Shown: piece after piece, positions 40,361 to 55,623 of the stretch | Position numbering within the stretch: position 1 is the first letter of the stretch | How the letters are laid out: each line of letters opens with the position of its first letter | Source: Melioribacteraceae bacterium | Lineage (GTDB): Bacteria; Bacteroidota; Ignavibacteria; Ignavibacteriales; Melioribacteraceae | DNA: 64,000 nt | Assembly (NCBI GenBank): GCA_021739765.1 | Contig: JAIPBD010000002.1 | Location: 248,001-312,000, forward strand | Direction: 5' to 3' | Notes under the pieces: model-generated | Database searches by the model: none | Told to the model about the DNA's origin: nothing | Seen by the model: the letters and a program-made list of their open reading frames with translations, nothing else | Program-made: the position numbers and the translations under genes

Positions 40361-40446
40361 CGGCCGCAAATAATTTTAGATAAAATGCAAAATACAAATT
40401 GCGTACAAATAGAAAAAACATTAAATTTTGTATCTATATTTTTTAC

Positions 40447-40505
40447 TTCAGTAGCTCAGTTGGTAGATTTACCCCGTATTTCAGGGGCAGCCGAATTTAC
40501 TGAAA
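40447..40505 (+). pseudogene. tRNA-like fragment upstream of tRNA-Thr
   Basis: A 59-nt sequence with perfect 7-bp acceptor-like ends (TTCAGTA at 40447-40453, TACTGAA at 40498-40504) and a D-arm block GTAGCTCAGTTGGTAGA identical over 17 nt to that in the functional tRNA-Thr 76 bases downstream. It has a CCCC/GGGG stem with an 8-nt loop in place of a proper anticodon arm and lacks a TTCGA T-loop. Too short and irregular for a canonical tRNA; most likely a decayed or rearranged tRNA gene. Confidence 0.5.
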
Positions 40506-40521: not shown

Positions 40522-40594
40522 GCTGGTGTAGCTCAGTTGGTAGAGCAGCTGATTTGTAATCAGCCGGTCGGTGGTTCGAGTCCTCTCACCAGCT
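40522..40594 (+). tRNA. tRNA-Thr (anticodon UGU)
   Basis: 73 nt with acceptor stem GCTGGTG/CACCAGC and discriminator T, D-arm GCTC-AGTTGGTA-GAGC, anticodon arm GCTGA-TTTGTAA-TCAGC (anticodon TGT, reads ACA) and T-arm GGTGG-TTCGAGT-CCTCT. The T-stem has one U-U mismatch in its middle. CCA is not encoded. A terminator hairpin follows at once. The 3' 45 nt are the left copy of the island attachment repeat. Confidence 0.95.
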
Positions 40595-40642
40595 CTCAAA
40601 AAGCTCGATTTTGAAATGAAATCGGGCTTTTTTGTTTTAAAG
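40550..40642. repeat. Left attachment repeat (attL) of the genomic island
   Basis: 93 bp starting in the tRNA-Thr anticodon stem and running through the tRNA terminator. It is repeated directly at 55531-55623 with a single mismatch (A at 40614, T at 55595). The tRNA is left intact on this side, as expected for tyrosine-integrase insertion into a tRNA 3' end. Confidence 0.93.
40602..40638 (+). terminator. tRNA-Thr terminator
   Basis: Stem AGCTCGATTT with AAATCGGGCT (one G-U pair) and a following T-run. It is part of the 93-bp att repeat and is therefore duplicated at attR. Confidence 0.8.
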
Positions 40643-41402: not shown

Positions 41403-41426
41403 AATAGAAAACGAATGTAAACTTTG

Positions 41427-41461
41427 AACCTTGTCCAATAATTAAAAAATTGGACAAGGTT
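41427..41461. terminator. Hairpin between convergent island genes
   Basis: Perfect 13-bp stem AACCTTGTCCAAT / ATTGGACAAGGTT with loop AATTAAAAA, between the 101-codon frame (plus) and the end of the hsd operon (minus). No long T-run on either side; likely a bidirectional terminator. Confidence 0.7.
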
Positions 41462-41477
41462 TAGAGTGGTAACTTGG

Positions 41478-41681
41478 TTAAGATGTTAGAACAATTTTTG
41501 AGGCTCTTGTGTATGCAGCTTTTTCTCTTTTCTCAAGATCTCTTCTAAAATCTCTCATCTCTTGATTTACTCTTCTATTAATTTCTGCCATTTTCTCATC
41601 TGAAAAAAGTAATTCCCCCTCCACCTCATTTTCAAGAAATGATTTTTTTGGGGTAGCTTCTGTTCTTTCTTCATTAGGCAT
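41478..41681 (-). CDS. Small charged protein at the end of the hsd operon
   Basis: 67 aa, highly charged, with a predicted amphipathic or coiled-coil helix (DEKMAEINRRVNQEMRDFRRDLEKREK). No family recognised. The gene starts 2 nt after the stop of the protease-like gene, so it belongs to the same transcript. It could be an antitoxin-like or adaptor peptide; there is no direct evidence. Confidence 0.6.
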   Translation of the reverse strand: MPNEERTEATPKKSFLENEVEGELLFSDEKMAEINRRVNQEMRDFRRDLEKREKAAYTRASKIVLTS

Positions 41682-41683
41682 TT

Positions 41684-43195
41684 CTAAACCTCTGATAGAT
41701 TATTAAATAAATTGATTTCACTAAAAGAAAAATCAAATCTTCTTAATTTTAAATCGCGCTGAGTAATGAAATTACCATTAATAGCTACGAAAATCAATGA
41801 ATAAAAGATGTTTTCATTTGGCTCTGTAGCATCTAAGACAATAAGTCCAAGAGCTTTCCCTTGGATAAACTTTTCGCGTGTACTAAGTTCACACACCCAG
41901 ACGAATTTAGGCATTTTTCTCTTTATAAATGCATTTTTTGCGGATTCATTCAATAATTTAGAATTCGCGATATGACTCTTAAATGATCGGCTGGAAGTTA
42001 AAAATATTCTTTTTAGGTACTCGTTATTTACTCCAAAGATGCTTTCATGTTCTAATTCTTCAATAATGAACTTCACAATCCGTCTTGCATTTATAGCATC
42101 AAGATATACTTTATTAAATAAAGGAACTATCATACCAGCAATATGTGTGTTTTTAAATTTTTCGGAATTATAAGACTCCAATGGATTATTGAAATCATAC
42201 AGACTATATGGGGGATGATTATCATCTATTGCGACAAATTTTCTTGCAATATCTGATAAATCAATATAAGAATTTGTTTTGGTTAAAAAACTACACTTCC
42301 CCTTTAAACTCATCACCATTTTATCGCTAATTGATTCTTGACCAATAACAGAAATAGCGTGTGAGATGTACTCATTTTCGATGATAGCAATAAAGGGAAT
42401 TCCAGATAAGATATAATCATAAAATATTTGTCTAAAAAATTCACCATGCTCATATTTCGTATTGGACATATACATTTGGGTTCCAAATCCAAAGCTTTTG
42501 AGAGTAAAAGCGATTTGTGTGGATACTAATCCATGACTTGGAGTTTGTCTCTCATAGCTTTGCGCTGAGAGGCACTTTATAATTTGAGAGGGTAATACTG
42601 GGGAATATTCTTGATAGCGACTGCTAAAATACTCAAGTACATTCCAGAGTGTAATTTCCGCACAACTCGTGGTCTCCTCATCTTGAGATGAATATGGGTA
42701 TGCATCAACTTCGAATTTTACCCCATTAACAGATGCTTGATTTTTACACAATCTAACTTTTGCAGATTCTAACTTGGTCGCAGATGGATTTATTGCAGTT
42801 CGACCAATTAATTTTGGGAATGTCGGTCTGATTACAAAATAACCACAATATTTTTGTTGGATCAACTTGATTGCCTCAGTTTCTCGAAACATACTGTTTT
42901 TAATAGGTATACTAAATAGTGAAACACGTATGCAGTATCTGGAGTATGCGCGATGTTTCGTCGAATAGTATAAGTAATAAGTGTCTCTATAAAATTTATC
43001 AACATAAGGTGCCTCAACATAATAATGCATGTTCGGATTTAAATTATTAAGGAAGTTGTCTAAATAAATATCTGTTTCTGGAGGAACTTCACCAAATACT
43101 TCAAAGATTGCCTTTTTAATCCAATAGACAAGATCGTTGAAATCGCAAATAACCGCACTTATAATTTCTTCTTTTTTTTTATCACTAAGACTCAT
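41684..43195 (-). CDS. Papain/C39-like cysteine protease-like protein in the hsd operon
   Basis: 503 aa, no signal peptide, no membrane segment. The central part (residues 165-330) carries an arrangement typical of papain-fold/C39-like proteins: Cys178 at the start of a helix (TTSCAEITLWNVLEYF), a distal His279 in YISHAISVIGQE and Asp324-Asp325-Asn326 in FVAIDDNHPPY. Residues before it (Y/W-rich, 60-150) and after it (370-500) match nothing I know. It overlaps the upstream exported-protein gene by 4 nt (ATGA) and stands 453 nt downstream of hsdR. Proteolytic activity is inferred from the residue pattern only; a non-enzymatic papain-fold protein is possible. Confidence 0.65.
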   Translation of the reverse strand: MSLSDKKKEEIISAVICDFNDLVYWIKKAIFEVFGEVPPETDIYLDNFLNNLNPNMHYYVEAPYVDKFYRDTYYLYYSTKHRAYSRYCIRVSLFSIPIKNSMFRETEAIKLIQQKYCGYFVIRPTFPKLIGRTAINPSATKLESAKVRLCKNQASVNGVKFEVDAYPYSSQDEETTSCAEITLWNVLEYFSSRYQEYSPVLPSQIIKCLSAQSYERQTPSHGLVSTQIAFTLKSFGFGTQMYMSNTKYEHGEFFRQIFYDYILSGIPFIAIIENEYISHAISVIGQESISDKMVMSLKGKCSFLTKTNSYIDLSDIARKFVAIDDNHPPYSLYDFNNPLESYNSEKFKNTHIAGMIVPLFNKVYLDAINARRIVKFIIEELEHESIFGVNNEYLKRIFLTSSRSFKSHIANSKLLNESAKNAFIKRKMPKFVWVCELSTREKFIQGKALGLIVLDATEPNENIFYSLIFVAINGNFITQRDLKLRRFDFSFSEINLFNNLSEV

Positions 43196-43623
43196 TTTTC
43201 TGCCCCAAAAATCACTCTCATTTGCTCAAGAAATGAATTAAAATCAGCACCCTCAGAATATTCCGGCTTTTGAATTGCAAAATACATTAGAGTGTTTACA
43301 ATTGGGATTTTAAGATTTCGTTTGTCTTCATAGAATTGATCGATTTTTTCTATCACCGAGTTTAGATCTCCAGCTGGAATGCTAATATCATAAATTCTAT
43401 CGAATACTCTTGTAAAACTTTCTAATTCCATCTTTAAAGTTGATCTATAGTTTTTAAGGCCCTCTATATGACCTCTCAAATAGACTGACTTCATTCCATC
43501 TGCTGTAAATTCCTTCCAAGCATATCCATTCATAAAGTCCTTAGTAAAAATGCTCTCGTTTGTCTGTGCTGTGTCGCATTTCGCAAATAATAAAATAAAA
43601 CCGATTAAAAGTAGCTTCTTCAT
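43192..43623 (-). CDS. Small exported protein, unknown
   Basis: 143 aa. A signal sequence (KKLLLIGFILLFAKCDTAQ) directs export; the Cys17 lies after FAK, a poor lipobox, so cleavage after TAQ by signal peptidase I is as likely. The mature part has the pattern NGYAWKEFTADGMKSVYLRGHIEGL, as in a diverse family of small bacterial exported proteins whose helices have a conserved W, Y and G-x-x-x-G. Located 24 nt after hsdR and overlapping the protease-like gene, an odd partner for a restriction system. Confidence 0.7.
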   Translation of the reverse strand: MKKLLLIGFILLFAKCDTAQTNESIFTKDFMNGYAWKEFTADGMKSVYLRGHIEGLKNYRSTLKMELESFTRVFDRIYDISIPAGDLNSVIEKIDQFYEDKRNLKIPIVNTLMYFAIQKPEYSEGADFNSFLEQMRVIFGAEK

Positions 43624-43647
43624 ATGTGCCTCAGTTGATGGAGTTGA

Positions 43648-46600
43648 TCAGTTGTTAGGTATATTTTCCATATAATCATCACAAAGTTTTTCAACTAAAT
43701 CTTCTGTTTCTTTGAAGAAATAATCTCCTACTTTTTGTCGATTTAGGGCTCTGTACCTTCTATATATTTTTCCAAAATCATCATAAATTTCATTTTCATT
43801 TACATGAGATTTAATCTTTACTATTAATCGTTCACCTTCTGGAGTTGTTGTCACATAATCAAAGAAGTCAATAATTTTATTCTCGAATTCTTTTATTAAT
43901 TCTCCGGTCTTTGCTTCTTGTTCATTTCGTGCAGCAATTACGGCTAAGACATCAAATAAACCGCCTTGATATAATTCCTTTCCTTCAGCGACTTTTATTT
44001 CTTTGGGTGGGATGGGTGGGCGGTATTCGGGTTCTACTTCAATTATACCAATCTGATTATCAAAGTAAACTTCGATTGGATCCTTGATCTCTCCGGGTCG
44101 ATGGAGCATGTTATAAATTGTATTGAATTTCTTCCAAAAGAATAGAAAACTTCCATCTCGATATTTATCTTCAATTTCAATTACATATTCAATCCGGTTT
44201 AGGATTGTAAAGTATTGAGCTGCTTTTGCTTTTGTATCGGCTGTCTGTTTTGGATTCGCACCAATATATTTTTCCAAACTATTCTGAAAATCAAGATAGC
44301 ACTCAGCATTATCCTTCTTTTCTGCATCGCGATAAATATCTATAAAAATATCGAAGTATTTTTTATACGGCTCACATTTTTTCAAATGAGTCAGTAATAA
44401 TTCCAAAACTTTTTTATCGGCGAATGGATCAAAATCACTTACGACAACATCTGAAAAATGTTCGAAGGCATCTTTAATATTTTGAACGTTTACATTGTCG
44501 TATGAAAAGTCAACAATCTTACAATCGTTTTTATATTTCGCAGTTCGGTTAACTCTGGAAATAGTTTGAATTGCACTTATTCCCCTAATCTCTTTATCAA
44601 GAAACAATGTGTGCAAACGTCTTTCATCAAATCCGGTTTGTAACTTAGCAACGACAATTATTAATCCGTTTTTCTTTAATTGAAAACTTTCCAAAACTTT
44701 GGATTCTTTCATTCCTTCATTTAGTCGTGATGCGCTTTGTTCATCTTGATTGCTTGAATAAACTATGTGAATCGGTGCATCTGCATATTTTTCATACTTG
44801 GAATCTTTCACTAACTCATTAAAATATTTTGTAATTGCTTCTTTATATGCAATTGCTGATTTGATCGAATAAACAGCAAGCATCGCTTTCCCGTAGCCAC
44901 GTATTTGTCTGTAAACATCCTTCACGAGCAAATCTGCGACATATTTAGCTATGGCATTTATTCGATCCCGATTCTCATAAATTTGCTTTTTCTGAGCATC
45001 TTTATATTCTTGTTCCGAAAGACCTTCAAGCTTGTTTGTTGGAAGATCAAACAACATTCTTGATGCAACCGGAACAATATTTTTTAATGGGTTTAGAATA
45101 AAACCATCTTCAATAGCTTCGGTCATTGTATAAGAATCGAAGGGTCGCCATAGTTTTTCGCTTTCTGCGTAACCGCTAAATTCACCAAATCTCGCTAAAG
45201 AATGATCATCGGGCGTAGCTGTAAAACCAATTATAAGATTTTTCTTTTTTTGAAGATTACTGTATTCCGGTGAATCGAAAGGTGCTTGTAATTCATCAAA
45301 AATTGAGATCATTTCTTCATGCTGATCACCACTATTTGAACGGTGGATTTCATCAATAAGAAAAACGATTCGCATTTTGGATAGCTTCTTAAGAATGGTT
45401 TTATCCATCATTTCTTTAACGGCACCAAACTTTTGAAGATTTACAATTACCAATCTTACATCTGATGAAAGAGCATTTTTGAATGTGCTTTTATTTGTGG
45501 CTTCGAGGAACATTTTCTTATCAATGTTCATGTTCATCATTAGAGAATCGATTTGTCCTCTGAGTTGTAAACGGTCAACCACGATCATAATTTTATCGTA
45601 AACAAATTCACCGTTTCGCATTAAATCTTTTAGTTGCAAAGCAGACCAACCAATTATATTGGACTTCCCAAATCCGGCTGCATATTGCATTAAAAGAGAA
45701 TAAACATTTTTGTTGTTTGAGTAGGATTTTCGTTTGTCGAGAAGTTCTTTTTTCTTTGCTTCACTTACTCCGGTAAGCTGTTTTTCGAGAAGCTTTTCGA
45801 AATAATCCGGTTCCGATTCGTGTTCTAAAAACTCATCAATTTTGGTTAGAATTTTATCTGTTCCGAATTTTTGTTTCGGTCTTGGTGAAATTAATCTTCC
45901 GGCTTCGCTTTTTAATTCTTTGATTCCATCGGAATAAGTCACTTCCCTTTCGATAAAATTATAATAAAGGATCTCTTTTTCGAGATAGTATTTTCCATAA
46001 TGAGCAGAAAAAATTTCCTTTATTTTTTCTTTTTTGTCGGCATCCGGTTTTAACAAAGGATATGGTTTGAATGATTTTGATATTTTCTGTTCAATTCTTT
46101 CTCTATCAAATTTCTTTTCTCTGCAAGTTTCAAGCATTTCATCAAAATATTCTGTGATATTTCTTATTACAAAAGTCTCTGAAATATCTGTTGTTGTTAT
46201 ATGAATGGCTTTTTCAAATATTTTAAGGAAGTCTTTCCGATAGGATTGTTTCTCATTTTCACTAAGCATCGAATTATTATCAATATTTTGATAATAGGAA
46301 CTAACCGCTTCGAAGTAATCTTTAATTACTTTTCCTCTGCCGTTTTTACTCGCTGTTTGGTTTGTGTAGTTCGATTTTAATTCGCTGTAACCTAAATAAA
46401 TTCCATTTATGAAAAGCACTACATCAGGGCGGAATGAAAATATTTGTGTTCCTTGATAATCATATTTGTAGGGCAATTCTTGAACAACTGAAAATATATT
46501 TTCAACAAATAAATTGTTTCCGTGAATTACACTGTCGCTTGTGTAAAAAAGATTTAGTTTTACTCCGTTTAGTGTTATCGATTTATTGGCATTTAGAAAT

Positions 46601-46860
46601 AATGCCATATTCCTACTGCTCGAAATTCTTTCTTGAATTAATTCAATTAGGTCTTTAAGTAATTGGTTTTCGTTTCCACGATACTTTTTAATTAAAATTT
46701 CGTATGGTTTTTTGTTCAGTGTCGTTTCGTATATAAAGGAAAGAAGGTCTTCTTCTATGATAAGTGAATTTGTTATCGTATTAGCTTTCACTTCTTTGTA
46801 ACCCAACCCATCTCTAAAAAATGGAATTAGGAATTTATCTTGAAGGTGAAGTTCGTTCAT
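43648..46860 (-). CDS. hsdR: Type I restriction enzyme, R subunit
   Basis: 1070 aa. The nuclease motif is Asp146...Glu160-x-Lys162 in FRPDVVLFINGIYLGYSELK, preceded by the HsdR_N domain. The helicase core has Walker A AAGFGKSN (Lys399, an AxGFGKS form), the DEIH box at 503-506 (FLIDEIHRS), FTATPDD and the second-domain motif QTISRVNRT. It cuts unmethylated DNA far from the recognition site after ATP-driven translocation. Its ATG shares one base with the hsdS stop (TAATG), so the subunits are coupled. Confidence 0.96.
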   Translation of the reverse strand: MNELHLQDKFLIPFFRDGLGYKEVKANTITNSLIIEEDLLSFIYETTLNKKPYEILIKKYRGNENQLLKDLIELIQERISSSRNMALFLNANKSITLNGVKLNLFYTSDSVIHGNNLFVENIFSVVQELPYKYDYQGTQIFSFRPDVVLFINGIYLGYSELKSNYTNQTASKNGRGKVIKDYFEAVSSYYQNIDNNSMLSENEKQSYRKDFLKIFEKAIHITTTDISETFVIRNITEYFDEMLETCREKKFDRERIEQKISKSFKPYPLLKPDADKKEKIKEIFSAHYGKYYLEKEILYYNFIEREVTYSDGIKELKSEAGRLISPRPKQKFGTDKILTKIDEFLEHESEPDYFEKLLEKQLTGVSEAKKKELLDKRKSYSNNKNVYSLLMQYAAGFGKSNIIGWSALQLKDLMRNGEFVYDKIMIVVDRLQLRGQIDSLMMNMNIDKKMFLEATNKSTFKNALSSDVRLVIVNLQKFGAVKEMMDKTILKKLSKMRIVFLIDEIHRSNSGDQHEEMISIFDELQAPFDSPEYSNLQKKKNLIIGFTATPDDHSLARFGEFSGYAESEKLWRPFDSYTMTEAIEDGFILNPLKNIVPVASRMLFDLPTNKLEGLSEQEYKDAQKKQIYENRDRINAIAKYVADLLVKDVYRQIRGYGKAMLAVYSIKSAIAYKEAITKYFNELVKDSKYEKYADAPIHIVYSSNQDEQSASRLNEGMKESKVLESFQLKKNGLIIVVAKLQTGFDERRLHTLFLDKEIRGISAIQTISRVNRTAKYKNDCKIVDFSYDNVNVQNIKDAFEHFSDVVVSDFDPFADKKVLELLLTHLKKCEPYKKYFDIFIDIYRDAEKKDNAECYLDFQNSLEKYIGANPKQTADTKAKAAQYFTILNRIEYVIEIEDKYRDGSFLFFWKKFNTIYNMLHRPGEIKDPIEVYFDNQIGIIEVEPEYRPPIPPKEIKVAEGKELYQGGLFDVLAVIAARNEQEAKTGELIKEFENKIIDFFDYVTTTPEGERLIVKIKSHVNENEIYDDFGKIYRRYRALNRQKVGDYFFKETEDLVEKLCDDYMENIPNN

Positions 46861-48146
46861 TAATCTTCCTTTGTGTAAACCTTTATTTTACCGGTAACTA
46901 CATCATTAATTAGGGTTTTGCGGAGTTCTTGCAATTTTTCTATTTGGGTATTTATTGTATCAATTATAACATTTATTTGATGTGTTTTTTGTTTGAGATA
47001 TTTCACGATTTGTTTTTGTTCATTTAAAGCGGGAACACCATAAACATTGTTTAATAATACTGACGGAGTAAAATGCGGAATAGTTGTTCCATTTGAAAAA
47101 TCCTTAAATACTTTTTCTAAAGATTTCAACATAAAATAAAGGAATGAATTAGATATCATTTTATTTTCATTTACAACTGCCATCGTTGAAGAAATATAGC
47201 CTTCTTTGGAAAGTATAATTTCACCAGCGTTTGCACCATCCCAAAGAACTAAAACTTTATTTGCATCAATTTTCACAAGATTGATATCTGGTTCAACAAA
47301 GACAGATTTTGTTTGTTTTCCTCTCAAATATTCCATAGATAAATACGGCAAGAAGCTGTTATCAGCAGAAAATTCGCTTGGTGTCTTTCCCTTCTGAAAC
47401 GTAACAAATTCTTTACCTCGTTTCACTTCCCAATGCTCCGGCACTTTCCCAATCCATTCAACTCCGATCTCTTTTAGTTTTACCGTTTTATCAAGACCAC
47501 GTGTAACAGTTTCGTTTATTAGGGATTGTTTAAGCTCCTTGTATTTTTCAGCTTTTTGTGTGAGTAGGTTTATCTTTTTATCAATGAGTGAAGTTTTTTC
47601 ATCAAGGTAGTTTGCTATTGCGGTTTGTTCGGGGAGAGGTGGAGAATATCTAAGGAGAGTATTCAATCTCTCCAAGTTCAAATTGTCTTGTGTACTTGTA
47701 ACTTTCACTCTATCTAATTCTGGTTTTGTCGCATAAAAAAGATAAAAAAGAAAATTCACATCTGATTTAATGGGAGTAAACCCAACAATGCTATCGGGAA
47801 CGTAAGTATCAAAGTTTACAATGGCGACATCACCAATATTTGCCGCGATTGCCATTAAAAGTGTACCGTTCTTAAATTCTTTGCTGACTTTTATTCCTTT
47901 TTCAGAGAGCGTTTGTCGGAATTGAGTTATAAATTTTATTGCTCTTGCAACCTCACCAGTTTGGATAAAAGGATAATTTCCTCCATACATTTGCGGATCA
48001 TTTCTTGGTCTATGTGTAAACTTACCACGCTCAAGGATGGCCAAATTTTTAATCCGTACTTCAGCCCAATGGGAAGGGACAGTATTTAATCCTTTAATAC
48101 GGCTATCTTTATATTGATTGTATTTAGTCAAATTAATTTTTTTCAC
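46860..48146 (-). CDS. hsdS: Type I restriction-modification specificity subunit
   Basis: 428 aa with the two target-recognition domains and their conserved helices: WAEVRIKNLAILERGK at the start of TRD1, LPEQTAIANYLDEKTSLIDKKI as the first spacer, WEVKRGKEFVTFQKGK for TRD2 and LNEQKQIVKYLKQKTHQINVII for the second spacer. The two halves follow one pattern, as expected for a bipartite recognition sequence. The overlap with hsdM is 4 nt. Confidence 0.95.
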   Translation of the reverse strand: MKKINLTKYNQYKDSRIKGLNTVPSHWAEVRIKNLAILERGKFTHRPRNDPQMYGGNYPFIQTGEVARAIKFITQFRQTLSEKGIKVSKEFKNGTLLMAIAANIGDVAIVNFDTYVPDSIVGFTPIKSDVNFLFYLFYATKPELDRVKVTSTQDNLNLERLNTLLRYSPPLPEQTAIANYLDEKTSLIDKKINLLTQKAEKYKELKQSLINETVTRGLDKTVKLKEIGVEWIGKVPEHWEVKRGKEFVTFQKGKTPSEFSADNSFLPYLSMEYLRGKQTKSVFVEPDINLVKIDANKVLVLWDGANAGEIILSKEGYISSTMAVVNENKMISNSFLYFMLKSLEKVFKDFSNGTTIPHFTPSVLLNNVYGVPALNEQKQIVKYLKQKTHQINVIIDTINTQIEKLQELRKTLINDVVTGKIKVYTKED

Positions 48147-50242
48147 AATTCTAATTCTTCTTCAAGAGTTTGAAGCTGCTGAGCAATGTTAGACAAATCT
48201 TCGAGGATTTCGACCATAGGACGAAGTTTTTTTGGTATATAAAAAACCTTATTAAAGTTAATTTCAACTCCTATAACATTTTCCAAATATTCAAATGGTT
48301 TAGTGATGTACTTAGCCATAAAATTTTCAATTTCTTTTTGGTTGGCTACTTCATCTTTGTGAAATGGTATAATTTCATAATCTTTTTGGTAATCGGGAGT
48401 TAGTTCTACCGTAATTTCAATTTTTTCCGGTTGGGTTTTACTTTTTTTCTTGTATGCAGCTTTCACCAATATTTTTCCGCATCCCGCTTCGACGTTGCTC
48501 AGCGCAGGCACTTCGGCGTTGCTCAGCGCAGGCGCTTCGACAAGCTCGGCGGAGGAAGATAAGGGCTTTATGATTATTGTTTCTTTGTCGTTGTCAAAAG
48601 AGTATTCAGCATCTTCGGTAGTGATTACCAAAGGTTGTTCTTTGTAATCCAAACTTGAGATAAATGGTTTTAAATCATCTTCATAATATTGTAATAAGGA
48701 TTTGTATTTATTTTTATCATATTCTGTAATCGTAAAGTCGTTTAGTTCCCTCTCACCGTTGGAAAGTTTTACGGGTTCAAGTTTTGTACTCTTTTTACCT
48801 TTTTCTAACCGGCTTTCGTAGGTTCTTCCAGCTTCATCAATATTGGTAAGCATAATCGCTTGTTTGTTGAAATAAAAATATTCTTTATCAAAAACTTTAG
48901 CGTAATCTTTATCCTTAAACTCTGCAAGTGTATTTACTATTTCTAATCTGCTTTCTTCATCAACTTCTTTCCGTTTAGAACCTTTACTTTTTTTGAGTGG
49001 TTTGAATTTATCACCGGCGTTAATAAGCATCAGTTTATCTTTTCGATCATCAGATTTATTCTTATTCAGCACCCACAGATAAGTATAAATTCCGGTATTA
49101 AAAAATTCATCGGTTGGCAATTGAATAATTGCTTCAACATAATCTTTATCAAGCATCCATTTACGAATATTACTTTCAGAAGATCCGGCATCACCACTAA
49201 AAAGAGTTGAACCGTTATGAACAACTACTCCCACTCCAACGGAATCGAGCTTAGCGATAAGGTGTTGCATAAATAGTAGCTGACCATCGGAAATTGAAGG
49301 AAGGTAGTTAAAGCGCCCGGTTTTATCGTTTTGAATGTCTTTTTGATATCCTTTCCAACTTACACCATAAGGTGGATTGGCTACAACTACGTCAAATTCT
49401 TCGTTATAGAATTTGTCTTCAACAAGCGTGTTTCCGTGTTCAATTTTTGAATCTTCTCTGAAACGGCTTTCAATTTTTGCAAGTGCGTAAAGAGTATCGT
49501 TCCAATCTTGCCCAAAAGTTTGAGTATAACGGTTAAACTTTTCGTTTATCCGGTCTTCAACACCAAAGAGCATATTTCCACCACCACAAGTACAATCGTA
49601 TATTTTAAGCAGTTTATCTGATTCTTCAATCTTTGAAGCGATGATTTCTGATATTAGAGCAATAATATCATCCGGTGTATATTGCTCTCCGGCGGTTTCT
49701 GCTGAAATATCCGCCCATTTTCTTTTAATGTGTTCTTCGAGAGTTGTAATTTCAGAGTTGTTGAAGGGTTTTAGATCAATCTCCGCCCAAAGTTTTGTGT
49801 AACCGTAGAGGACTTTTTTGGAGTTTAGTTTTGCTATTATTCCTTTAATATCAAGGAATTTTTCTCCATCATTGGAATCAACTCCAAGAAGGTCTTTTGT
49901 TTCACCATCAAATCCATTTAAGTAGGCATTAAAATCAATATCAAATGATTTATCATTTTTGCAAATATCCAAAAGTGACTTTTCATGTTCAAAAATAAAT
50001 ATATTATATCCTTGCCCTTTATCAGTGATCAAGCTGTATTTATCATCCGAGTCCATGTTTTTTAATTCATTTTCACCAACATCGATCTTTAGATTATCGA
50101 ACATTCGTACTAATCGTGATTCGATTAGCATTAACGCAAAAAAGGGCATCATATAAGATGGCCATTCGGATTCTTTTATTCCGCTTCCTCTCAATAAATC
50201 GGCTGTAGCCCAAATTTTAGATTCGTATTGAAGGATATCCAT
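48143..50242 (-). CDS. hsdM: Type I DNA adenine methyltransferase subunit with palindromic-repeat insert
   Basis: 699 aa. HsdM N-domain, SAM-binding GGGNMLFGVEDR near residue 220 and the catalytic NPPY at 289-292 (VVANPPYGVSW). Together with HsdS it methylates adenine in the recognition sequence. At about residues 562-586 the protein has a foreign Ala/Glu/Val-rich stretch (SSAELVEAPALSNAEV and onward) encoded by three short palindromic repeats at 48485-48555; it lies between the catalytic core and the C-terminal helical tail. Otherwise normal; probably still active. Confidence 0.95.
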   Translation of the reverse strand: MDILQYESKIWATADLLRGSGIKESEWPSYMMPFFALMLIESRLVRMFDNLKIDVGENELKNMDSDDKYSLITDKGQGYNIFIFEHEKSLLDICKNDKSFDIDFNAYLNGFDGETKDLLGVDSNDGEKFLDIKGIIAKLNSKKVLYGYTKLWAEIDLKPFNNSEITTLEEHIKRKWADISAETAGEQYTPDDIIALISEIIASKIEESDKLLKIYDCTCGGGNMLFGVEDRINEKFNRYTQTFGQDWNDTLYALAKIESRFREDSKIEHGNTLVEDKFYNEEFDVVVANPPYGVSWKGYQKDIQNDKTGRFNYLPSISDGQLLFMQHLIAKLDSVGVGVVVHNGSTLFSGDAGSSESNIRKWMLDKDYVEAIIQLPTDEFFNTGIYTYLWVLNKNKSDDRKDKLMLINAGDKFKPLKKSKGSKRKEVDEESRLEIVNTLAEFKDKDYAKVFDKEYFYFNKQAIMLTNIDEAGRTYESRLEKGKKSTKLEPVKLSNGERELNDFTITEYDKNKYKSLLQYYEDDLKPFISSLDYKEQPLVITTEDAEYSFDNDKETIIIKPLSSSAELVEAPALSNAEVPALSNVEAGCGKILVKAAYKKKSKTQPEKIEITVELTPDYQKDYEIIPFHKDEVANQKEIENFMAKYITKPFEYLENVIGVEINFNKVFYIPKKLRPMVEILEDLSNIAQQLQTLEEELEL
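48485..48555. repeat. Three tandem palindromic repeats inserted in-frame in hsdM
   Basis: Units of 24, 24 and 23 nt (48485-48508, 48509-48532, 48533-48555), each of the form CNCTTCG...CTC(A/G)GCG.AGG. Unit 3 contains TCGACAAGCTC (48537-48547), identical to the loop core of the palindromes at 10371-10435. The first two have a diverged core with GTTGCTC. They keep the reading frame open. Confidence 0.85.
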
Positions 50243-50431: not shown

Positions 50432-51217
50432 GTGGCAAAAAAGAAAAAAGATAGAGATTCGACAAATATTAGTATTCACATTGCGGAAAGTGGAGCAGAA
50501 AAAAAGATTAATGTTCTTACAAGAAGTCAATCAGACTTCAAGATTAATGAATTGGGGACTTCAAGTAATAAGTTCGTTTTTATTAATCCGACAGGAGCGA
50601 CTCTCTTGCAACATCCAGAAATACTTAAAATTGTTGAAGACAAAATTGATGAATTTATGAAAAATTGGCAATCTTCCGTTAAGAATGAAATAGGAAAAAT
50701 GAGGGAAATTTCGAAATTCTTTGTGCTGACGTATTTGGATTACCGCATTTTGAGTGACGATAAACTTCGGAAAAAATATACTGAGAAAGACGATATAATG
50801 AATGAATTAATTGAGGAAGTAGAATTAATTATTGAAGAGTTTTTCGAATTACCGGAAATAATGATTGATTCGTTTCGAATGAAGGAGGAGGATTGGAAAA
50901 ATAGAATCATTGACATTGAAATGAATTATGTAAGAAGACTTTTAACTCCAGAAAGAGCCAAGCTATACAAAAAAATAGCACGACTTATAGTAGTTATTAC
51001 AAATGACTTTTATCGCGGTTATGGTGCACAAGGTTTAGCATGTAAAATTATGGGAACTGATCCAAAAACATTTTCAAAGTGGAAGACGTCGACTTTAGAG
51101 CACAGCGAAGTCATGTATAATTTGCCAATTTTTGAAAAATTTCAAGAAAACATTTCAGGTTCGGAACGAGAAGAATTGAAAGAATTAGTTAAAAAACATC
51201 TTGAAAAGGGCATTTAG
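50432..51217 (+). CDS. Island protein with C-terminal HTH-like segment
   Basis: 261 aa, start GTG, lysine-rich N-terminus. Mostly helical and acidic in the middle (residues 100-165); residues 190-225 (YGAQGLACKIMGTDPKTFSKWKTS) look like a helix-turn-helix. No family recognised. It is divergent from hsdM, the place where a controller of the restriction system would sit, but a role in that system is inferred from context only. Confidence 0.6.
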   Translation: MAKKKKDRDSTNISIHIAESGAEKKINVLTRSQSDFKINELGTSSNKFVFINPTGATLLQHPEILKIVEDKIDEFMKNWQSSVKNEIGKMREISKFFVLTYLDYRILSDDKLRKKYTEKDDIMNELIEEVELIIEEFFELPEIMIDSFRMKEEDWKNRIIDIEMNYVRRLLTPERAKLYKKIARLIVVITNDFYRGYGAQGLACKIMGTDPKTFSKWKTSTLEHSEVMYNLPIFEKFQENISGSEREELKELVKKHLEKGI

Positions 51218-51417: not shown

Positions 51418-52323
51418 TTGCTTCAGATAAACTCGAAAGAGGCTCCGAATAATCCAATTACTGTCGGCTATGTTATTGAGCAGTATTTGAAATATATTAA
51501 AAGAGATAGATCACCAGCTTATTATCGATCCGTTGAATTATCTTGCTCCCATCTAATCAACCATTTCTCATCTGAGAAACTAATTACCTCGTTTACATTG
51601 CAAGAGATTGAAGACTTTTTTGGTCGATTAAAAGTAAATGCACCAAAAGGTTATCACGTCTATTACAGAAATATTAAAGCAACATTTAATAAAGCTGTTG
51701 AGTGGGGTTATTTAGTTAAAAATCCACTAAAAGGATATAAACCAGATAAACTTCAAAGAGGATTTCCACTATATCTAAGCAGAGAAGAACTTGATGAAAT
51801 ACTCCTTCATGTTACTAATGATCGATTGAAAGAAATTTATTTATTTGCTTTCTATACCGGAATGAGACTTGGGGAAATAACGAGTTTAAAAATGAAATGT
51901 ACAAATCTACGTGAAAAAATAATTGTAATCGGCAACAATGAGTTTACAACTAAGTCAAGGAAAGTGCGACAAGTGCCAATGACTGATCTTGTTTATGAAA
52001 TCGTTCAATTGAGAGTGAATAATTTTCCAAAGAATTCTTATGCAGAAATACAAGAATATTATCTTTTCGGAAAATCAAAGAAAGTACCCTTCACAAAAAA
52101 TTTCATATCCAAGTCATTTAAGAACGCTGTAAAAAAAACAACACTGAACCAAACGCTTCATTTTCACTCATTAAGGCATTCCTTCGCTTCACTCTTAGTA
52201 CAGAAGGGTGTTTCTCTATATGTCGTTAAGGAATTATTAGGGCACGAAAATCTGATAACAACTCAGGTGTATGGACATTTAAATATTAAGTCTTTATATA
52301 AAGCGGTTGAGTTTCTCAATTAA
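51418..52323 (+). CDS. Tyrosine recombinase (phage-type integrase)
   Basis: 301 aa from TTG. Core-binding domain (residues 18-110) and catalytic domain with a full active site: Arg150 (TGMRLGE), His250-x-x-Arg253 (HSLRH), His276 (LLGHEN) and Tyr285 (TQVYGH). It closely resembles the broken integrase near attR. The frame is open 78 nt further upstream without a normal start, so the N-terminal arm-binding part may be missing or begin at an unusual codon. It is 32 nt upstream of the SF3 helicase gene. Confidence 0.9.
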   Translation: MLQINSKEAPNNPITVGYVIEQYLKYIKRDRSPAYYRSVELSCSHLINHFSSEKLITSFTLQEIEDFFGRLKVNAPKGYHVYYRNIKATFNKAVEWGYLVKNPLKGYKPDKLQRGFPLYLSREELDEILLHVTNDRLKEIYLFAFYTGMRLGEITSLKMKCTNLREKIIVIGNNEFTTKSRKVRQVPMTDLVYEIVQLRVNNFPKNSYAEIQEYYLFGKSKKVPFTKNFISKSFKNAVKKTTLNQTLHFHSLRHSFASLLVQKGVSLYVVKELLGHENLITTQVYGHLNIKSLYKAVEFLN

Positions 52324-54420: not shown

Positions 54421-55446
54421 TTAGTCAAACTGCTGGATGGCTTCATTTAGATTGCTTATCTGTAGATGCGAATAAACTTGAGTGGTTGATAAATTTTCAT
54501 GTCCGAGCAATTCTTTTACAACGTATAATGAAATCCCTTTTTGAACTAAAATAGATGCGAAGGAATGCCGTAAAGAGTGGAAATGAATTTTGTCATTCAG
54601 CCCACACGAACGAACTATTTTTTTGAACTTCTTACTAACGTTGTCTTTTTTGTATCCATTTTTAAGTCCTTTTCTGAAAACAAAATCCTTCATCTGAATG
54701 TTATTCGTATTGCTAACTAATATTTCTAAAATATTATTATGGATAGGAATCTTTCTTTCCTTTTTACTCTTAGAGGAGAATCCATAATCAGAAATTATCG
54801 TGATTGTATTTTCTTCAAAATTGATCCAATTCCTTCTCATGTTTACGATCTCCCCTAACCTCATTCCAGTATAGAATGCTATAAAAAATATATTTCTAAA
54901 GTTTTCATCATCTGTTGATGCTATTATTTTTTCAAATTCTGTTTTTGTAATAAAAATTGGATTGGATTAATTTAAGCGTGGAAATCTAATTTTCTTAAAA
55001 TGATTTACTTGGAGATATTCCCAATCAACCGCTTTTGAAAACGCAGCTTTTAGAGTTCTGTAATAAAGATAAGCTCCTCTTTGTGTCCGTGCATAGGTCA
55101 CTGTAATAAATTGATCTAATTCTCTAAGGGTTATTTCTTCTAAATTTTTGTTTCCAAGAAATGATTCTAACTGCCGGAATGATAACCCAATAGACTTAAG
55201 ATAGCTTTTGGATTTGGTTGGTCTTAAATAATTTTCATATTCATTTGAAAAATTTTTTAATGAATTATTTGAATTAAGCGGAATTGTTGGTGAATTTTGT
55301 TCAGTATTAAGTTCGTGCATGAATTTTTTAACAAATTCTTCAGCGATTTTTAATGATTCGGTTTTCGTTGAAATTGAAGTTCTTTTACCATCTTTGAAAT
55401 AGTAAAATTGATAAAAAGGTGATCGGTTGGTTTTTGTGAGAAACAT
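54421..55446 (-). pseudogene. Tyrosine integrase interrupted by an in-frame stop codon
   Basis: One reading frame of 341 codons. Codons from 55446 encode the arm-binding and core-binding domains (KTNRSPFYQFYYFKDGKRTS at the start, then NYLRPTKSKSYLKSIG); a TAA at 54967-54969 interrupts it; codons 54966 to 54421 continue in the same frame with FITKTEFEKIIAST, GMRLGE, HSLRHS, LLGHEN and TTQVYSHL, so all catalytic residues (R, H, R, H, Y) survive. A single base change would restore it. It lies at attR, oriented away from the repeat: the ancestral integrase of this island. Confidence 0.9.
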
Positions 55447-55530: not shown

Positions 55531-55623
55531 TGATTTGTAATCAGCCGGTCGGTGGTTCGAGTCCTCTCACCAGCTCTCAAAAAGCTCGATTTTGTAATGA
55601 AATCGGGCTTTTTTGTTTTAAAG
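55531..55623. repeat. Right attachment repeat (attR)
   Basis: Direct copy of 40550-40642 with one mismatch, containing the 3' part of tRNA-Thr and its terminator. It lies just beyond the start of the broken integrase. The length from one repeat to the other is 14,981 bp. Confidence 0.93.

Follow-up and report, generated by a model that had tools for sequence, protein, structure and literature searches.

The window analysed here comprises 64,000 nucleotides (nt) of a Melioribacteraceae bacterium (assembly GCA_021739765.1, contig JAIPBD010000002.1, positions 248,001 to 312,000) and holds a run of six genes on its minus strand at 41478..50242. The run begins with a type I restriction-modification set, that is, an N6 methylase, a specificity subunit and an SNF2-type restriction subunit encoded one after another by hsdM (48143-50242), hsdS (46860-48146) and hsdR (43648-46860); all three are recognised by Pfam and PADLOC profiles, and the NCBIfam matches of hsdM and hsdR lie below their cut-offs. 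Three more genes follow: 24 nt beyond hsdR an open reading frame (ORF) for a 143-amino-acid (aa) protein of exported type (43192-43623), overlapping it by 4 nt the gene of a 503-aa cysteine-peptidase-like enzyme (41684-43195), and 2 nt further on the gene of a 67-aa protein (41478-41681). Order, coordinates and spacings agree to the base with a preliminary description of this DNA, and its view that the extra genes are foreign to a standard type I system is supported. The transcript looks to end at a terminator-like hairpin directly behind the 67-aa gene (41421-41467, minus strand), with a folding energy of -19 kcal/mol against -7.1 in shuffled sequences (z -5.6, 0 of 200 shuffles equally stable); this hairpin is absent from the sites given by a consensus terminator scan. 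A promoter scan showed no excess (40 found, 40.4 expected). The operon is carried by a mobile island of 14,981 base pairs (bp) at a tRNA-Thr gene (40522-40595). Exact copies of a 64-bp attachment repeat spanning the tRNA 3' end lie 14,981 bp apart, the left (40550-40613, plus strand) made up of the 3' part of tRNA-Thr and the sequence after it and the right at 55531-55594 (plus strand), and the island encodes a tyrosine integrase (51418-52323, plus strand, Pfam profile). Our main finding is that the last two genes of the operon recur elsewhere as a linked pair, a possible switch for self-poisoning or virus defence that has so far escaped recognition.

By prediction the 503-aa protein is a clan-CA cysteine peptidase of staphopain/C39-like type. 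Residues Q171, C178, H279, D324 and D325 are invariant in all 46 aligned relatives and likewise in all 14 members of a broader set, distant ones among them, so that the papain-like label and the Cys-His-Asp assignment made earlier both hold. No family in Pfam, NCBIfam or PADLOC matched the protein, and sequence and profile searches of the PDB sequences likewise returned no match. PADLOC models (copy from 2023) were matched by none of the 14 members at E <= 0.1, the PHROGs phage-protein families gave nothing below E 0.02, and a viral structure library gave no match with E <= 0.001. The 46 relatives weakly match 21 Pfam families altogether, including Peptidase_C10 (7/46, best E 0.00032) and C39_2 (7/46, best E 0.00042), neither of which is matched by the window enzyme itself. 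Its AlphaFold model has a mean predicted local distance difference test score (pLDDT) of 91.5. A Foldseek search of this model against the PDB at E <= 0.001 gave six matches, five staphopain entries and UfSP2 (E 6.9e-04), staphopain being the best; the template-modelling score was 0.60-0.63 on four mature staphopain chains (173-183 residues) and 0.32 on prostaphopain. Further matches were to PCAT1 (E 0.003) and UfSP1 (E 8.1e-03). Beside the papain-like domain the enzyme has additional conserved N- and C-terminal parts. Two distant plasmid members, L012 and L015, 28% identical over their whole length, are further extended at the C-terminus by about 200 residues, a region absent from shorter members.

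In a sample of the phylum the enzyme was found in 10 of 395 genomes, the window's own included, and four distant relatives turned up on plasmids among 72,556 records; phage records held no relatives. A species-genome collection returned no confirmed relative to a single-protein query and 51 loci to a query with a six-member alignment, five of these sharing contigs with loci already found, and a scan of viral contigs added one, giving 52 loci. Going by record titles, these are mostly from Bacteroidota and Chlorobiota; single copies in metagenome-assembled genomes (MAGs) labelled Lachnospiraceae, Dojkabacteria and archaeon are placed by label and may reflect misbinning. Members of a distant clade were sought in viral contigs, where none was seen, and in a class of 244 genomes, which held only two, both already known. 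The tree places the enzyme of locus L025 as sister to that of the window (support 99/94). Searches of the literature within our reach, which leaves out most subscription journals and bioRxiv, listed nothing that we recognised as this family. We are dealing with a protease family that is unnamed in Pfam, NCBIfam and PADLOC and recurs over Bacteroidota and Chlorobiota with a linked mini-partner.

That partner, judged from gene order and sequence, is the 67-aa protein. Its profile derives from 38 of the loci together with the window, so that most matches arise by construction and the observation is one of placement and tail; it found a homologue in 49 of the 52 loci (48 under a stricter per-domain limit, which missed L053). 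By coordinates the partner gene lies directly 3' of the enzyme gene, separated by -7 to +12 nt in 44 loci including the window, with L075, where the enzyme gene is a remnant, as the exception. The three loci without a match are L073, the MAG labelled archaeon, in which an ORF with an unrelated tail occupies the partner's place, and L067 and L074, in which the enzyme match reaches the contig end. The register of the tail is constant when counted from the C-terminus, and its pattern is hydrophobic-hydrophobic-L-[T/N]-small-COOH. Position -2 is T (32) or N (15) in 47 of 49 partners, the exceptions being L045, which is truncated by one residue, and L053, with Cys. A or S occupies position -1 in 34/49, L position -3 in 40/49, and A position -8 in 37 of 44 loci. 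The window partner ends ...ASKIVLTS, hence in V-L-T-S. Covariation of the T/N choice at -2 with enzyme columns (127 and 350 at the top) was not used, being confounded by descent, as the tree needs only about five changes. Neither Pfam nor NCBIfam matched the partner, PADLOC gave 0 matches, and its profile found 11 matches among PDB sequences (best E 0.063) which we judged to be chance helices. Five loci (L034, L060, L069, L072, L075) have a broken enzyme gene and an intact partner, 5 out of 5, a pattern that weakly fits an antitoxin.

In L076 and seven other loci the enzyme and partner genes are in frame across a single TAA stop, and we therefore modelled the L076 pair as a continuous chain. 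The input alignment consisted of fused and enzyme-only rows, 29 of 30 partner-only rows having aligned to the wrong place. The resulting model has a pLDDT of 87.8 and a predicted template-modelling score of 0.89. Within the partner the first 20 residues fall below pLDDT 50 and are followed by a short strand and a 32-residue helix, scoring 83 to 92 in ten-residue blocks, and then by the tail, the last block having a mean of 78. When secondary structure was compared with the model of the window enzyme alone, two isolated bridge residues were new, 577 and 226. The former is tail position -4. The latter comes just after the counterparts of G222, which is invariant, and L223, which nearly is, some 45 residues past the catalytic Cys; the corresponding segment of papain makes up the S2 side of its groove. 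We infer that these two bridge residues pair, which would place the partner tail along the substrate groove. We take the enzyme fold as predicted, and the tail in the groove more loosely so.

The 143-aa protein stands apart from this pair. With its hydrophobic N-terminus it is plausibly exported. Homologues are present in 7 of 395 genomes including the window's, the other six belonging to the same order or class. By eye, these six homologues are short, have hydrophobic N-termini and stand beside unrelated genes; their genomes, matched by handle, are in the enzyme's phylum sample and have no enzyme match. Nor did the protein match, at E <= 0.1, any of 11,235 reading-frame segments from the 65 loci L012-L076. 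On both counts we rejected it as a component of the module, and it is probably a lineage-specific passenger. The preliminary description had treated the three extra genes as a set and the exported protein as a partner of the protease. The latter idea is not borne out, and from the set it is the enzyme and the 67-aa protein, listed in that description but given no weight, that form a unit. Its suggestion of an independent module was right, because the enzyme with its small partner recurs in 52 loci, many of them without hsd genes nearby.

The genomic surroundings of the pair were read by eye from ORF lists, and selected neighbours were searched with profiles. Many pairs stand among ordinary genes, and many loci have no hsd genes in view. 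Other pairs come after genes of defence or conflict. Restriction genes precede the pair in L025 (hsdM, hsdS, a kinase, a tetratricopeptide-repeat protein and hsdR, the last confirmed by Pfam and 42 nt upstream of the enzyme gene) and in L066 (hsdM, hsdS and an AbiEii-like AAA_21 ATPase, with a 345-aa gene between). In L070 (8025-11592) the genes directly before the pair encode a reverse transcriptase and a 212-aa protein with no Pfam match, a patatin gene lies 9 nt upstream of it in L043, and in L037 it follows a Fic protein gene. Hma proteins adjoin it on the other strand in L036, and Snf2-type helicases lie near L050 and L076. Ubiquitin-like genes (multiubiquitin, ThiF-type E1 or DUF6527) adjoin the pair or lie within about 2 kb of it in L014, L015, L023, L033 and L059. 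The run in L033 (6348-11742) is apparently one operon of a helix-turn-helix-like ORF, an IrrE-like gene, multiubiquitin, a 117-aa ORF, a ThiF-type E1, the protease and the partner, with 26 nt from the end of the ThiF gene to the first possible enzyme start. On a Hymenobacter plasmid (L013, 5574-12575) a member has as its neighbours on either side a caspase-domain protein (by Pfam) and a gene with a DEAD/DEAH helicase annotation.

Under the assumption of uniform placement, an hsdM-type methylase within 10 kb is found in 3 of 46 searched genomes (L025, L046, L066) where 0.53 would be expected (P = 0.017), and Multi_ubiq close to the pair in 2 of 46 where 0.016 would be expected, the data themselves having suggested the second test. 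Whole genomes show no clear link, Multi_ubiq occurring in 1 of 10 enzyme genomes and 20 of 385 others in the phylum sample. Among 13 island ORFs scanned for ubiquitin-like conjugation genes (ubiquitin-like proteins, E1, E2, JAB) there were none. Dependence on a ubiquitin-like system was rejected, as Multi_ubiq was not found in 41 of the 46 searched locus-holding genomes.

We tentatively favour, and put at somewhat less than an even chance, the idea that the pair is a protease-inhibitor module, toxin-antitoxin-like and following the logic of staphopain and staphostatin with an unrelated, helical partner. It would be a portable two-gene unit in which a small dedicated partner keeps a cytoplasmic papain-like cysteine peptidase silent, the partner helix docking on the enzyme and the fixed C-terminal tail sitting in the active-site groove. 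Should the partner be removed or lost, for example during phage infection or once the island is gone, the peptidase would be set loose to cut a host or phage protein, and growth would stop. In the window the pair stands at the end of a type I restriction-modification operon on a tRNA-Thr island, as its final two genes. The sequence establishes the gene pair, the catalytic residues, the constant tail and the island; inhibition, toxicity, the trigger and phage defence are properties that we infer. The gene layout fits that of a type II toxin-antitoxin system, with toxicity and neutralisation putative. Were the partner an antidote, the pair would be a protease-based toxin-antitoxin system or defence effector switched by the final residues of a protein some 65 residues long.

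Several known systems invite comparison. In the staphopain-staphostatin system (C47/I57), which supplies the best fold match of the enzyme, small inhibitor (staphostatin) genes adjoin the protease genes and are co-transcribed with them (PMC3462683). Here too a small protein gene stands beside that of the protease and binding in the groove is modelled, whereas our enzyme is larger, has no visible signal peptide and counts mobile and defence loci among its contexts. Staphostatin B places I-G-T-S at P2 to P2' of the protease groove, according to PMC7863939, and the likeness of the window's V-L-T-S is suggestive as an analogy. The C10 proteases of Bacteroides are also papain-like and co-transcribed with a small inhibitor-like gene, Bfi or Bti, up- or downstream (PMC3462683), and their spread by mobile elements is reported in the title of PMC2873492. 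These inhibitors, unlike our partner, are exported and staphostatin-like, and the Peptidase_C10 profile reaches only the seven relatives mentioned above. C39 peptidases (PCAT1, ComA, LahT type) share the Gln-Cys-His-Asp arrangement, weak profile matches and the PCAT1 fold match; in contrast, no ABC transporter domains were found here and the partner has no Gly-Gly leader. A precedent for a papain-like protease that arrests bacteria from inside, with an immunity gene adjacent, is provided by Cpe1-Cpi1; such toxins act by cutting GyrB and ParE, as PMC12136450 has it. Our pair likewise combines a papain-like protease with a small adjacent gene, protective by analogy, but lacks a delivery domain, and its tail is modelled in the groove, whereas Cpi1 blocks substrate binding and not the active site.

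A number of points weigh against the protease-inhibitor reading. The two models compared are of different sequences, the L076 chain and the window enzyme, and the modelled tail register is uncertain by one or two residues. If that register is right, Leu stands at the putative P1 of the tail, which might thus be cut. We know of no activity of the enzyme. The partner is predicted as a helix with a free C-terminal tail, where staphostatin is a beta-barrel. The review PMC7863939 says that staphostatin B requires Gly at P1, other residues making it a better substrate, and argues against a substrate-like mode of inhibition for papain-like proteases proper; staphopain is a relative of papain. The partner profile matches 0 of 8 loci of the distant clade; in 7 of these a short ORF of 52-71 aa directly precedes the enzyme gene and does not lie 3' of it, while L022 gives no clear picture. 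The five-of-five decay pattern is weak because the enzyme gene is nearly eight-fold longer, so that random lesions would mostly fall there, and some of the breaks may be assembly or sequencing errors. Only some of the loci adjoin known or suspected defence genes.

Next in our ranking after the protease-inhibitor module comes the possibility that the partner is a substrate. The peptidase would trim or transfer the C-terminus of the small protein, in the manner of a UFM1 protease, in a minimal peptide-tagging or precursor-processing system. UfSP1 and UfSP2 act on the C-terminus of a small protein, and both are fold matches of the enzyme, UfSP2 being one of the six with E <= 0.001. A tail whose position is constant relative to the C-terminus would suit such a role, as would the ubiquitin-like genes by five loci and the two Multi_ubiq neighbourhoods. 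The predicted structure of the partner, however, is not a ubiquitin-type beta-grasp fold, its end lacks Gly-Gly, neither an acceptor nor a ligase is seen, and Multi_ubiq was not found in the 41 genomes noted above or in the window's own. We hold this to be unlikely, while ranking it ahead of the other alternatives; if true, it would mean a new C-terminus-reading processing system. A broader version, which we think more doubtful still, makes the pair the core of a peptide-tagging or peptide-plug immunity module, in which the peptidase trims or transfers the free C-terminus of a helical mini-protein as the common effector stage of unrelated defence operons, ubiquitin-like ones included.

The restriction genes raise the question of whether the pair guards restriction-modification, inactive while held by HsdR or the complex and released when a phage inhibits restriction, which is the logic of PrrC. 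Consistent with this, hsdR precedes the 143-aa gene in the window, it lies 42 nt upstream of the enzyme gene in the sister locus L025, and hsdM-type methylases within 10 kb are in excess. Against it, many loci have no hsd gene in view, the methylase of L046 is 4.5 kb off on the other strand, and HsdR of the window and HsdR of L025 did not cluster, so the restriction-modification partner varies; we consider guarding improbable. No better placed, in our judgement, is a housekeeping or metabolic enzyme with a small subunit and no role in conflict: many copies do stand among ordinary genes, but a patchy distribution over 10 of 395 genomes, four plasmids bearing distant relatives, and single copies on a viral contig and an integrated island argue otherwise. 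An interbacterial toxin-immunity pair like Cpe1-Cpi1 is very improbable, even with a small gene 3' of the protease gene and a papain-like toxin/immunity structure (9l5u, E ~0.05) among the weak matches of the one-chain model, given that no delivery domain is found in the window enzyme (0 Pfam families) or among the 21 families weakly matched by its relatives, that the enzyme has no N-terminal signal by eye, that none of the 13 island ORFs scanned is a secretion gene, and that conservation of the partner tail contrasts with the considerable divergence of Cpi1-type immunity proteins (PMC12136450).

Some minor features of the island and its edges were also recorded. Within hsdM, a 24-bp unit is repeated twice in tandem and in frame (48487-48534), and no further copy of a 22-nt core occurs in the genome when up to three mismatches are allowed. 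Before tRNA-Thr lies a tRNA-like remnant (40440-40505), in which a 28-nt stretch matches the start of the tRNA region at 86% identity. Near the right repeat, two minus-strand ORFs (54421-54864 and 54967-55446) correspond to the catalytic and SAM-like portions of a second tyrosine integrase and are apparently one split gene. Between the first integrase and the divergent hsd operon, a 261-aa protein (50432-51217, plus strand) is without a credible Pfam match and gives a weak PADLOC match to HEC-02B (E 0.0012).

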